Below are positions 43,660 to 50,564 of a stretch of DNA of 64,000 nucleotides, one piece after another. The notes beneath the pieces were generated by a model. It ran no database searches. It saw nothing but the letters and a program-made list of their open reading frames with translations, and was not told the origin of the DNA. The stretch comes from Antarctobacter sediminis (GTDB lineage Bacteria; Pseudomonadota; Alphaproteobacteria; Rhodobacterales; Rhodobacteraceae), in the NCBI RefSeq assembly GCF_019218285.1, contig NZ_JAHUZG010000003.1, forward strand, positions 682,001 to 746,000. The letters are read 5' to 3'. The position numbers were made by a program, and so were the translations under genes. The first letter of the stretch is position 1. Each line of letters begins with the position of its first letter.

Positions 43660-43690
43660 TGTGATCACACCCTTGAAAGCTGTGATCACA
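43660..43690. promoter_or_regulatory. Paired TGTGATCACA palindromes upstream of sucC
   Basis: TGTGATCACA occurs at 43660-43669 and again at 43681-43690, centres exactly 21 bp apart (two helical turns). They are about 112-142 bp upstream of the sucC start and after the mdh terminator. The same pair with the same spacing occurs upstream of sdhC. This suggests cooperative binding of one regulator. Confidence 0.75.
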
Positions 43691-43783
43691 TATTCAGAAA
43701 CGCTTGTAGGAACAGTGATTCGGGGTGAGCGCTATCACTCCGGTCCCGTTGCGATGCCGGTCCGCGAAAGCGCGCATCGCCAA

Positions 43784-43813
43784 TAAAAAAGGGCCCGGCA
43801 AGGCGGGCCCTTT
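43784..43813 (-). terminator. Terminator of mdh
   Basis: On the minus strand AAAGGGCCCG pairs with CGGGCCCTTT and is followed by TTTTTT. It ends the mdh message before the sucC regulatory region. Confidence 0.87.
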
Positions 43814-43833
43814 CGAAACGTTGCCGCTGAGGC

Positions 43834-44796
43834 TCAGGCCAGCGAACCGTCGATACCTTTGCAGGCTTCGACGAGGCCCTGAACAGCCTTGACCGAAACG
43901 TCGAACATGTCTTGCTCTTCCTTGTTGAGCTTGATGTTGACGATCTTCTCGATGCCGCCAGCACCGATCACGGTGGGCACACCAACATACATGCCGTCGA
44001 GGCCGAATTCGCCGTCGCAATATGCGGCGCAGGGCAGAACGCGCTTTTGGTCCTTGAGGTACGCTTCGGCCATTTCGATGGCCGAGGTGGCCGGAGCGTA
44101 GAAGGCCGAACCGGTCTTAAGCAGGCCAACGATCTCGGCGCCGCCGTCACGGGTGCGCTGAACGATCGCGTCCATCTTTTCCTGCGTGGTCCACCCCATT
44201 TCGACCAGATCGGGCAGGGGGATGCCTGCAACGGTCGAATAGCGCACCGAAGGAACCATCGTGTCGCCGTGGCCTCCCAGCACAAAGGCGGTGACGTCTT
44301 TCATCGAAACGTTGAATTCCTCGGCAAGGAAGTGGCGGAAGCGGGCCGAGTCCAGCACGCCTGCCATGCCGCAGACCTTGTTCGCGGGCAGGCCCGAGAA
44401 TTTCTGCAACGCCCAGACCATCGCGTCCAGCGGGTTGGTGATGCAGATCACAAAGGCGTTGGGGGCATGTTCGCCGATGCCTTCACCGACCGATTTCATC
44501 ACCTTCAGGTTGATGCCCAGCAGGTCATCGCGCGACATGCCCGGCTTGCGCGGCACACCTGCGGTCACGATGCAGACGTCTGCGCCGGCGATGTCGGCAT
44601 AGTCCTGCGTGCCCTTCAGTTTGGCGTCGAAGCCTTCCGAGGGGCCGGATTCCGCGATGTCGAGCGCCTTGCCCTCGGGGATGCCCTCGGCGATGTCGAA
44701 CAGGACGACGTCGCCCAGTTCCTTCATTGCTGCGAGGTGGGCAAGCGTGCCACCGATCTGTCCCGCGCCGATGAGGGCAATCTTGGGTCTGGCCAT
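43834..44796 (-). CDS. mdh: Malate dehydrogenase
   Basis: The 320-residue LDH-like malate dehydrogenase oxidises malate to oxaloacetate with NAD. Rossmann start [20 protein letters not shown], then [20 protein letters not shown] with the substrate-binding Arg loop, and the catalytic His in [20 protein letters not shown]. Length and composition match alphaproteobacterial Mdh. Although it precedes the suc genes, an intrinsic terminator follows it, so it forms its own transcription unit. Confidence 0.96.
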
Positions 44797-44956
44797 GGAT
44801 TTGATCTCCGCCTAGCGTGAATTTGCCGCTTTGCGTACGCGCAGACGCGCGGTCGTGCAAGAGCGCTGCGCTGCGGCGCATGGTCCGGACGCCTTGTAGA
44901 TAGCGCTAAAGGCGGGATAAGAACCTGTCACGGGGGAAATTTTCGCGGAGGCGCCC

Positions 44957-45712
44957 ATGGAACTGTTCACAGCCTCCGTCTTTGCGGTGACCATTCCGGC
45001 GGTGATTTTTGCCGGTATTTCCAAGGGCGGTTTCGGGTCCGGGGTGGCCTTTGCCAGCGCGTCGATTCTGGCCATCGTGCTGGAACCGGGCATAGCGCTG
45101 GGGCTGATGTTGCCGCTCTTGATGCTGATCGACGTGGCCAGTCTGCCCGCGTATTGGCGCAAGTGGGACTGGTCGGCAGCGCGGGTGCTTCTGATCGGGT
45201 CGATCCCGGGCACGGTTCTGGGGGCCTTGTTCTATGCTTGGACAAACCCGGACGCGATCCGCCTTTTGATCGGGCTGGTCGCTTTGTTGTTCGTTGCGTG
45301 GCAATTGGCACAGGCGCGCGGCCTGATCCGCGTGGGCGGCGTGCGTTTCGGACCGAAGGTCGGGCTTTTTGCCGGGGTCGTGCTGGGGTTCACCAGTTTC
45401 GTCAGCCATGCCGGAGGCCCTGCGGCGGCGGTCTATTTGCTGGGGCAGGGCCTGAGCAAGACGGTGTTTCAGGCGACCACGGTGCTGATCTTCTGGGCGG
45501 TGAACCTGTCGAAATCAGGGATCTACGCAGGCATGGGGATCTTTACCCGCGAAACGCTGTTGTTGGATCTGGCGCTGGTGCCCTTTGCGCTTTTGGGGAC
45601 ATGGCTGGGGATCAAGGCGCATCATCTGGTGCCGGAAAAGCTGTTTTTTGGCATCACCTACGTGGCGTTGACGCTGACGGGAACCAAGCTGGTTTGGGAT
45701 GCGCTGACATGA
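44957..45712 (+). CDS. TauE/SafE family sulfite/anion exporter
   Basis: A 251-residue membrane protein with about 7-8 helices, starting FAVTIPAVIFAGISKGGFGS. The glycine-rich SKGGFGSGVAFAS is diagnostic of TauE/SafE, and FTSFVSHAGGPAAAVYLLGQ is the second repeat signature. The family exports sulfite or sulfoacetate, or acts on other sulfur compounds. Since a tau module lies in this window, export of sulfite from taurine breakdown is plausible. However, this gene is 17 kb away and paired with a GNAT gene (ATGA overlap), so this is only inference. Confidence 0.85.
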   Translation: MELFTASVFAVTIPAVIFAGISKGGFGSGVAFASASILAIVLEPGIALGLMLPLLMLIDVASLPAYWRKWDWSAARVLLIGSIPGTVLGALFYAWTNPDAIRLLIGLVALLFVAWQLAQARGLIRVGGVRFGPKVGLFAGVVLGFTSFVSHAGGPAAAVYLLGQGLSKTVFQATTVLIFWAVNLSKSGIYAGMGIFTRETLLLDLALVPFALLGTWLGIKAHHLVPEKLFFGITYVALTLTGTKLVWDALT

Positions 45713-46131
45713 GCCTGCGGGCCCTGATCGCGGCGGACTGGCCGCAGGCGCAGGCCCTGTATCTGGCGTTGACCGCAAGTGATGCCATCGGCAACGCAGG
45801 TGATTTCGACAGGGTGTTAAGCCATCCCGGAACGCAGGTGATTGGCCGGTTCGAAGGGGAGGCCCTGCTGGCCATGGCGACGCTGCACGTTTTGCCGAAC
45901 CTGACCTATGGCGGCCAGCCCTACGCGTTGGTGGAAAATGTCGTGACCGCCCCCGAACATCGGGGGCGTGGTCATGGGCGCGCGGTCCTTGAACACCTCC
46001 TCACGCAAGCGCGTGAGGCAGGCTGTTACAAGGTCATGCTGCTGACCGGGCAAGGCCGGACCGCGCGCGGATTTTATGAGGCGATCGGTTTCTCCGCCAA
46101 AGAGAAATGGGGCATGATCCTCCGCTATTGA
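45709..46131 (+). CDS. GNAT family N-acetyltransferase
   Basis: A 140-residue single-domain acetyltransferase. VENVVTAPEHRGRGHGRAVL is the acetyl-CoA pyrophosphate loop (Q/RxxGxG/A type), followed by EAGCYKVMLLTGQGRTARGF and YEAIGFSAKEKWGMILRY at the end. Substrate unknown. It starts inside the tauE stop (ATGA). Confidence 0.87.
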   Translation: MSLRALIAADWPQAQALYLALTASDAIGNAGDFDRVLSHPGTQVIGRFEGEALLAMATLHVLPNLTYGGQPYALVENVVTAPEHRGRGHGRAVLEHLLTQAREAGCYKVMLLTGQGRTARGFYEAIGFSAKEKWGMILRY

Positions 46132-46140
46132 AGCGGCGTG

Positions 46141-49448: not shown

Positions 49449-49484
49449 GCAAGTCGCTGAAAACGATATGCCAATCATATCATG

Positions 49485-49515
49485 CCGCATCCGCATGGCG
49501 GGTGCGGTCATTTTG
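49485..49515 (+). terminator. Terminator after mch
   Basis: CCGCATCCGC (49485-49494) pairs with GCGGGTGCGG (49498-49507), one wobble, loop ATG, followed by TCATTTTGCATTT. Confidence 0.7.
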
Positions 49516-49595
49516 CATTTGGGGAAGGGGTAACTGCTGCGTTACGTTCTTGCCGTCTGGCGGGGCGACTCACCCCGCAAGCCGGGGGATGGAAC

Positions 49596-49799
49596 ATGAC
49601 CACACCAAAGCTGCCGCAGGCGTCTCAGGACATTCTGGGCATTCCCGAAGACAAGATGCCGGGCGTCCTGTTGCAACTGATAGACAACCGCGCGCTGACC
49701 GGTCTGGTGCAAGAAGTGCATCGGGAAATGGTTTCTCCCAACCCCGACTTGCGTAAGAAGGCCGCGCTTGCCCTGCGGCACATGGGGTTTGTCGACTAG
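49596..49799 (+). CDS. Small conserved-looking protein of unknown function (67 residues)
   Basis: A 67-residue soluble protein: MTTPKLPQASQDILGIPEDK, GVLLQLIDNRALTGLVQEVH, PDLRKKAALALRHMGFVD. It is helical and mildly acidic. The start is preceded by GGGGGATGG and the internal helices look real. No family recognised. It lies 53 nt before the VWA-type gene in the same direction. Confidence 0.62.
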   Translation: MTTPKLPQASQDILGIPEDKMPGVLLQLIDNRALTGLVQEVHREMVSPNPDLRKKAALALRHMGFVD

Positions 49800-49852
49800 G
49801 CGTCACTTTCACGTGACTTGCGTGCGAACCGGCGAAGGGGTCTGATCGCCCC

Positions 49853-50524
49853 ATGCGGTTTGTCCTTTTGCTATGGTTCGGGTTCTGGCCTTTGCGGGTG
49901 CATGCCTGCGAGGTTGCCTTGGTTCTGGCCGTCGATGTGTCCGGGTCCGTGGACGCGCAGGAATACGACATCCAGATGCAGGGGCTGGCACATGCGCTCC
50001 GCGACAGCGCCGTATCCGAGGCGCTGGTGCGCGGCAAGGCGCGGCTGGCGCTTGTTCAGTGGACCGGCAGTTCGCGCCAGCAGGTCACGCTGGACTGGCA
50101 AGAGATCCGCAGTTTTGCCGACACCGATGCCTTTGCCGACCGCGTCGCGACCGCGCCGCGCGCATGGCGGCACTATTCCACCGCAATCGGCGAGGCGCTG
50201 AGAGCCTCGGCAGGACTTTTCGAAGGGGCGCAAGCCTGCCGCCGACGGGTGATCGACATCTCTGGCGACGGCACCTCGAACGAAGGTCCGGAACCCGCGA
50301 TGCTCAAGCCGCAACTGGCCGCGCTGGGCATTACGGTCAACGCGCTGGTCATCGAGGGGGCCGAGGACAAGGACCTGACCGGCTACTTCTATGAGAATGT
50401 GATCACCGGACCCGGGGCCTTTGTCGCGACGGCCACCGGTTACGCCGACTATCCCGACCGAATCCGTCAAAAACTCTTGCGGGAATTGACGCGCCAGACC
50501 GCGACGCGGGAAAACGGGCGTTAG
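49853..50524 (+). CDS. DUF1194 (von Willebrand factor A-like) secreted protein
   Basis: A 223-residue exported protein. Signal peptide RFVLLLWFGFWPLRVHA, then CEVALVLAVDVSGSVDAQEY with the MIDAS motif (DxSxS). AWRHYSTAIGEALRASAGLF and RRVIDISGDGTSNEGPEPAM complete the metal site (second Thr/Asp). DUF1194 proteins are VWA-fold metal/ligand-binding proteins of unknown role in Rhodobacterales. The end of the gene runs into the sdhC regulatory region; a coding GTGATCAC at 50399 is noted but probably incidental. Confidence 0.88.
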   Translation: MRFVLLLWFGFWPLRVHACEVALVLAVDVSGSVDAQEYDIQMQGLAHALRDSAVSEALVRGKARLALVQWTGSSRQQVTLDWQEIRSFADTDAFADRVATAPRAWRHYSTAIGEALRASAGLFEGAQACRRRVIDISGDGTSNEGPEPAMLKPQLAALGITVNALVIEGAEDKDLTGYFYENVITGPGAFVATATGYADYPDRIRQKLLRELTRQTATRENGR

Positions 50525-50534
50525 CGCCACATTC

Positions 50535-50564
50535 GTGATCACACACTCCAAATGTGTGATCACA
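50535..50564. promoter_or_regulatory. Paired GTGATCAC/TGTGATCACA palindromes upstream of sdhC
   Basis: GTGATCAC at 50535-50542 and TGTGATCACA at 50555-50564 have centres exactly 21 bp apart. They lie about 118-147 bp before the sdhC start. Spacing and distance are the same as in the sucC region. One regulator probably controls both TCA operons. Confidence 0.75.

Follow-up and report, generated by a model that had tools for sequence, protein, structure and literature searches.

The AkgR regulon of Rhodobacter sphaeroides was reportedly described by Imam et al. (2015, mBio); we take AkgR to be RSP_0981, and RSP_1663 is presumably CceR. We compared this system with a stretch of 64,000 nucleotides from Antarctobacter sediminis (contig NZ_JAHUZG010000003.1, positions 682,001 to 746,000; the whole stretch is called the window below), in which two operons of the tricarboxylic acid (TCA) cycle, beginning with sucC and sdhC, are each preceded by a tandem pair of the palindrome GTGATCAC. 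Judged from sequence, these pairs are very probably AkgR operators, and we infer that they would be bound by P0004, a GntR/FCD protein encoded elsewhere in the same genome. In its accessible portion, PMC4344238 predicts that the GntR protein RSP_0981 controls RSP_0967-6, RSP_0974-6 and RSP_0965-62 (sucCD, sdh and sucAB-lpd), and it also predicts RSP_1663 and NtrC at R. sphaeroides sdh; PMC6365646, as far as its text was available, calls R. sphaeroides AkgR a transcriptional activator and reports GTGATCAC among the AkgR sites. AkgR had already been named as the candidate regulator in an earlier reading of the window (the sequence-only reading), and it fits in its family, its target operons and its palindrome as given in those portions of text.

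At the A. sediminis locus the pairs precede sucC and sdhC, and GTGATCAC is exact at all four sites and before the gene of P0004. The tag RSP_0981 is close in number to those of sdh (RSP_0974-6) in R. sphaeroides, whereas here the regulator gene lies on another contig. The best PDB matches to P0004, by sequence and by fold, are E. coli McbR (PDB 4p9f) and VanR-like GntR proteins; McbR is, however, only 25% identical, and its function differs from that predicted for P0004. Class I activators such as CRP work from sites that lie whole helical turns from the promoter and resemble the present case in their phased upstream sites, but CRP is an unrelated protein, and here two dimers would sit at a fixed 21-bp pitch. 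According to the available text of PMC6365646, PS417_07240 of Pseudomonas simiae is likewise a GntR-family protein with the palindrome GTGATCAC, reported to be 32% identical to AkgR; it differs in that it controls deoxyribonate genes and in that its GTGATCAC site lies at -47 to -40 from its own start codon. A 21-bp tandem pitch, a helical ladder of promoter distances and an own-gene operator overlapping the -10 position were not met in the accessible part of the AkgR literature, nor did any title listed by literature searches on these subjects point to them, and the sucC/sdhC regulon is not among the available content of PMC5343134. The regulon itself is already known, and we claim no priority for its geometry. 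The paired sites are located as follows:

43661..43689, minus strand: predicted sucC tandem operator pair, two GTGATCAC separated by N13, centres 21 bp apart
43660-43669 and 43681-43690: the TGTGATCACA copies within the sucC pair, by pattern search
50535..50563, plus strand: predicted sdhC tandem operator pair, GTGATCAC, N13, GTGATCAC

Individual GTGATCAC copies start at 43661 and 43682 on the sucC side and at 50535 and 50556 on the sdhC side, upstream of the sucC start codon at 43548 (minus strand) and the sdhC ATG at 50682 (plus strand). These positions confirm the palindrome pairs with centres 21 bp apart that the sequence-only reading had placed before both genes; as it had written, the outer sdhC site is shorter, consisting of the octamer GTGATCAC only. 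The octamer occurs six times in the window against 1.05 expected, a count reached in none of 100 shuffles. With up to three mismatches allowed, the pair pattern matched in the window only at the sucC and sdhC sites, both perfectly, and at least two such loose matches per window arose in one of 100 shuffles. A search of the whole genome (5.12 Mb, 21 contigs), which the earlier reading had suggested, returned two perfect GTGATCAC-N13-GTGATCAC matches, both within the window at these two operons, and ten further matches at exactly two mismatches. Random scatter of the 96 genomic GTGATCAC copies would yield about 0.002 perfect pairs, against the two present; together with the retention of the pairs in relatives described below, this bears out the claim that coincidence was very unlikely. 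The interval between 43689 and 50399 contains no GTGATCAC, and mdh is therefore without a pair, as had also been noted. TGTGATCACA has four copies genome-wide, three in the window and the fourth at C2:242131-242140.

That fourth copy is followed, at 8 bp, by the ATG of P0004, a 215-residue protein (C2:241478-242122; L035:845-1492) with an N-terminal GntR winged helix-turn-helix (PF00392) and a C-terminal FCD domain (PF07729), both above the Pfam cut-off. Its AlphaFold model has a predicted local distance difference test (pLDDT) score of 90.1, and the best structural matches are GntR proteins, with E. coli McbR at the top. The gene is on contig C2 and the window on contig C3, and the regulator is thus not encoded near the sucC and sdhC operons. 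An orthologue, defined by a best E-value cut-off of 1e-50 that was set after the results were seen, is present in 268 of 295 family genomes. The N13 pair occurs in 243 of these 268 genomes versus 6 of the 27 without the orthologue (Fisher 1.7e-14), and a pair at any gap of 2-32 bp in 262 of 268 versus 6 of 27; such p-values are too small because of shared ancestry, and co-occurrence was computed for this GntR regulator alone. By sequence, most genomes retain or lack both gene and pair, and the direction is clear. The single regulator that the sequence-only reading had proposed for both operons is supported by this co-retention and by the shared operator. In 7 of 83 loci the orthologue lies about 8-17 kb from sucC, most of the loci holding just 10 kb of flank; the RSP locus tags suggest a comparable proximity in R. 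sphaeroides.

GTGATCAC stands just 5' of the gene's own start codon in 30 of the 30 best orthologues, and before the start in 69 of the 80 loci of named relatives among the matches listed, none of which is titled Cereibacter or Rhodobacter sphaeroides. TTGAC precedes a GTGATCAC by 8-20 bp in 62 of these 80 loci, and by exactly 13 bp in 54 of 63 matches, the pattern having been sought across whole loci and not solely 5' of gntR; in A. sediminis TTGAC likewise stands before the GTGATCAC ahead of the gntR gene. From this spacing the own operator sits at the expected -10 position with the ATG close behind, and the simplest reading of that arrangement is therefore autorepression of a nearly leaderless gntR gene. 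The loci that lack the own-gene operator include L199, L200, L202, L214, L221 and L224, most of them titled Roseicyclus, in which gntR seems by eye to abut its upstream neighbour.

The exact N13 pair was found in 249 of the 295 family genomes, mostly two per genome, and the reversed pattern used as a control gave no match in the 295. Among the matches listed, 75 exact pairs are followed by sucC (37), sdhC (36), fumC (1) and a sucA-first operon (1, in G177). Ten genomes were chosen for having one or three pairs, and the neighbouring genes were checked at 13 of their loci; sucC or sdhC adjoins the pair at 12 of these, the remaining one, in G276, shows no match to sucC, sdhC or mdh, and two listed pairs, one each in G285 and G276, lay outside this check. 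Conservation in related genomes, on which the sequence-only reading had staked its case, is thus found, and the double motif is not scattered, with all 75 listed pairs and 12 of the 13 further loci at TCA operons. Both pairs are kept where the operons sit on different contigs or 90-190 kb apart (G001, G063, G093, G199 and G252), and in relatives the flanks diverge and the sites are kept. The start codon of sucC stands 96-150 bp from the pair (40 sites, three with N12), that of sdhC 107-191 bp. The ORF (open reading frame) adjoining the G276 pair resembles, by eye, a glycosyltransferase-type membrane protein. The fumC pair lies about 124 bp before the start in one genome (L075, G042:C16:228293), and judging from it fumarase can join the predicted regulon. 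In the wider class, searched with a gap of N12-14, a pair is present in 3 of 3 family genomes and in 2 of 187 other genomes. The two outside the family, G308 (L247, N14) and G440 (L248, N13), belong to the same genus, and their pairs adjoin genes that by eye are TonB-receptor-like, the G440 pair also preceding a GntR/FCD gene; on this evidence tandem pairing may predate the TCA regulon.

The pitch of the pair is nearly fixed. A search over gaps of 2-32 bp gave exactly 13 bp in 67 of 75 pairs among the matches listed, a count that, like the phasing distances below, was read off the listings by hand. Three further pairs have a gap of 12 bp, all before sucC, and the other five gaps (5, 10, 10, 19 and 23 bp) are at neither sucC nor sdhC, the 5-bp pair lying at gntR in G187. 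In G135 (L340), G191 (L349) and G285 (L338), sucC is preceded by a row of three palindromes with the 21-bp pitch.

On its 3' side the sdhC pair is followed by a conserved element, CGTGAC(A/T), which in A. sediminis forms part of the predicted sdhC promoter:

50623..50628, plus strand: GTGACA, predicted sdhC promoter, -35-like box lying 59 bp beyond the pair, conserved and phased in relatives
50645..50650, plus strand: TAGAAC, -10-like box of the predicted sdhC promoter after a 16-bp spacer, its TA conserved

GTGACW was present in 53 of 60 sdhC promoters, and TA followed 16 bp after it in 47 of these 53, in a set that was partly selected for GTGACW by pattern search and not for TA. The resulting core, CGTGACW-N16-TA, reads as predicted -35 and -10 boxes. 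Of the first 36 sdhC loci, which were unselected, 26 have the element 57-60 bp beyond the pair and four have it at 48, 69, 78 and 79 bp; no GTGAC was found in six of the 36, in a search that began 20 bp after the pair. The element itself stands anywhere between 57 and 106 bp from the sdhC start codon.

Two pattern searches for GTGACW in the 295 genomes, at 35-65 and 62-92 bp after the pair, gave 161 usable rows among the matches listed, which fall at 36 bp (1), 47-48 (8), 57-61 (138), 68-71 (11) and 78-79 bp (3). The weighted step between these clusters is 10.54 bp and the best period in a scan of 5-20 bp is 10.6, with p ~1e-4 for the phasing fit when each distinct off-cluster distance is counted once. 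The weighted step matches the helical repeat of B-DNA. Each of the 23 off-cluster rows was gene-checked as an sdhC promoter, and they sit at -2, -1, +1 or +2 turns. The 35-65 search matched 157 genomes, with 150 rows listed, 3 dropped and 147 kept; 40 of the latter were gene-checked, and the 107 others, which without exception belong to the 57-60 cluster, were counted as sdhC. Two of the three rows dropped belong to sucC, G233 at 55 bp and the minus-strand row of G123 at 62 bp; the third, G219 at 44 bp, is on the strand opposite to sdhC. From the 24 rows of the 62-92 search 14 were kept and 10 dropped, seven at sucC (G199, G146, G150, G023, G016, G123 and G169), two on the opposite strand (G154 and G192) and one, G135, as a second GTGACA at an already counted site. 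Rows were dropped by gene, strand or repeat site and not by distance, and some of those dropped are in phase (G192 at 71 bp; G150 and G199 at 77 bp). In these rows the distance from pair to core promoter has evolved by whole turns only, whereas the spacing to the gene has varied without such constraint; a pattern of this kind would be expected if the bound protein had to meet the polymerase on a single side of the DNA. If transcription is assumed to start 7 nucleotides beyond the -10 box, the two sdhC sites are centred near -98 (inner) and -119 (outer), a predicted placement typical of upstream activation rather than repression, and contact with RNA polymerase on one face of the helix is the likeliest mode. 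Between the sdhC pair and the -35 box lies TTGCGCCAAAAAACCGC (50585-50601), and several of the relatives listed keep GCGCCAAAAAACCGC(GC) in this interval; the stretch is perhaps the site of a second regulator.

Taken together, the pairs would serve an AkgR-type GntR/FCD regulator, whose gene lies elsewhere in the genome, as tandem operators. Upstream of both promoters, that of sucC and that of sdhC, two of its dimers would sit on one and the same DNA face, separated by two helical turns, and would activate by touching RNA polymerase on one helix face, and the two operons would thereby rise and fall in concert; the same regulator would repress its own gene from one operator at the -10 position. 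It is possible, if somewhat short of probable, that this constitutes a family-wide AkgR switch in which nothing but operator geometry determines the sign, a phased tandem making the protein an activator and a single -10 site making it a self-repressor. If true, this would give the family of regulators a new mode, activation by cooperative FCD-type GntR dimers held in fixed register. The arrangement shows how one regulator could link two segments of the citric acid cycle across a large bacterial family, and the more than 100 sdhC promoters, with distances that differ by whole turns to within 1-2 bp, amount to a natural experiment on helical phasing. The helical ladder yields a precise and testable prediction on activation by GntR/FCD proteins.

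Other readings of the pairs were considered. Short palindromes can arise by chance as a general possibility, and conserved or repeated DNA may have no regulatory role, but this account has virtually no likelihood here: two pairs stand where about 0.002 are expected, 249 of 295 genomes conserve the pair even with the operons far apart, and the sites are kept where the flanks diverge, a conservation that rules out a chance repeat. CRP recognises the consensus TGTGA-N6-TCACA, and a CRP-type site is ruled out as well, the gap of that consensus being absent from the palindrome here. At sucC and sdhC the bound protein might instead chiefly repress, or might have an architectural or looping role. The fold matches of P0004 are GntR proteins, one of which is titled a transcriptional repressor (Atu1419/VanR), and helical phasing can equally reflect looping or bending; the pairs, however, stop 36-79 bp short of the predicted sdhC -35 box, on its upstream side, and do not overlap it, and the available text of PMC6365646 calls AkgR a transcriptional activator, which leaves a mainly repressing or looping role unlikely. 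It is very unlikely that a different GntR/FCD regulator, such as the paralogue at C2:1494541, or a member of another family binds the pairs and that the GntR gene merely shares the operator. Such a view could draw on the same palindrome outside the family, where the G440 pair lies between the TonB-receptor-like gene and the GntR/FCD gene, on the Pseudomonas GntR protein tied to GTGATCAC in the accessible part of PMC6365646, and on the 33 GntR-domain matches in the A. sediminis genome, and on a paralogue at E 3e-44. Yet TGTGATCACA is confined genome-wide to these operons and this one GntR gene, whose presence and absence track the pair, and the paralogue locus (L270, 3.6 kb) has no TGTGATCACA and, over the 1.5 kb leading up to the match, no GTGATCAC; its one copy of the latter comes after the match.

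Several observations weigh against activation by an AkgR-type regulator from paired sites as the preferred reading, or limit its reach. Control is not by one regulator alone, given the further predictions at sdh in the portion of PMC4344238 that was available. We infer the putative identity of P0004 as the AkgR orthologue from its family, targets, motif and rough neighbourhood. Six genomes have a pair without a clear orthologue, three of them being 73-77% complete, and six others have the orthologue without any pair at a gap of 2-32 bp. The own-gene operator is missing in 11 of the 80 listed loci, the GTGACW box was not found within the scanned stretch of 7 of the 60 sdhC promoters, and the pair in G276 (L347, G276:C3:283857) has no sucC, sdhC or mdh match alongside. 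The reversed controls were not entirely empty, with one match (G243) in 295 genomes at gaps of 2-32 bp and five matches, all in G367 (67% complete), at N12-14 in the wider class. Finally, the sucC core promoter is weak, and its phasing is merely hinted at by the sequence. Its candidate boxes are:

43610..43615, minus strand: GGTTCA (CGTTTA-like in relatives), weak -35 candidate, 45-46 bp after the pair
43584..43589, minus strand: TAGTTA, weak candidate sucC -10 box, about 71 bp after the pair

A position-weight scan covering 43 sucC sequences placed the CGTTT element at offset 42-43 in 29 of them, at 40-41 in 4 and at 31-32 in 3, with the remaining 7 at other offsets. The three at 31-32 may be short by one turn, but the motif is too weak to count.

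The genes of the two operons, assigned by Pfam, and the hairpin between mdh and sucC, found by folding, are the following:

42355..43548, minus strand: sucC, succinyl-CoA synthetase beta, first gene of the operon predicted to be controlled
40421..41302, minus strand: sucD, succinyl-CoA synthetase alpha
36671..39643, minus strand: sucA, 2-oxoglutarate dehydrogenase E1
35134..36666, minus strand: sucB, dihydrolipoyl succinyltransferase
31718..33112, minus strand: lpd-like dihydrolipoyl dehydrogenase, downstream of sucB on the same strand
50682..51065, plus strand: sdhC, first gene of the sdh operon
51529..53331, plus strand: sdhA
53811..54743, plus strand: ORF with SdhB-type iron-sulfur domains
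43787..43814, minus strand: hairpin with a T-rich tail in the mdh-sucC interval, likely the mdh terminator

The sequence-only reading had held that mdh is set off by its own terminator. This stands in so far as folding gives a T-tailed GC hairpin (-19.6 kcal/mol, z -2.23, equalled in 5 of 200 shuffles), but the hairpin is not among the matches of a consensus terminator scan. Within the sucC operon, sucC and sucD are about 1 kb apart, with an ORF of 290 codons (41425-42297) between them that has no Pfam match. The interval between sucB and lpd (33099-35129) holds three ORFs, of which Pfam assigns one to the family 2 glycosyltransferases and finds no match for the other two, and the operon is therefore not plain sucB-lpd. 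The TCA operons are flanked, by Pfam, by genes for an HpcH/HpaI lyase (46643-47629), a mesaconyl-CoA-hydratase-like protein (48420-49448) and a methylmalonyl-CoA-mutase-type protein (59093-61075); their presence suggests a link of the locus to the ethylmalonyl-CoA pathway.

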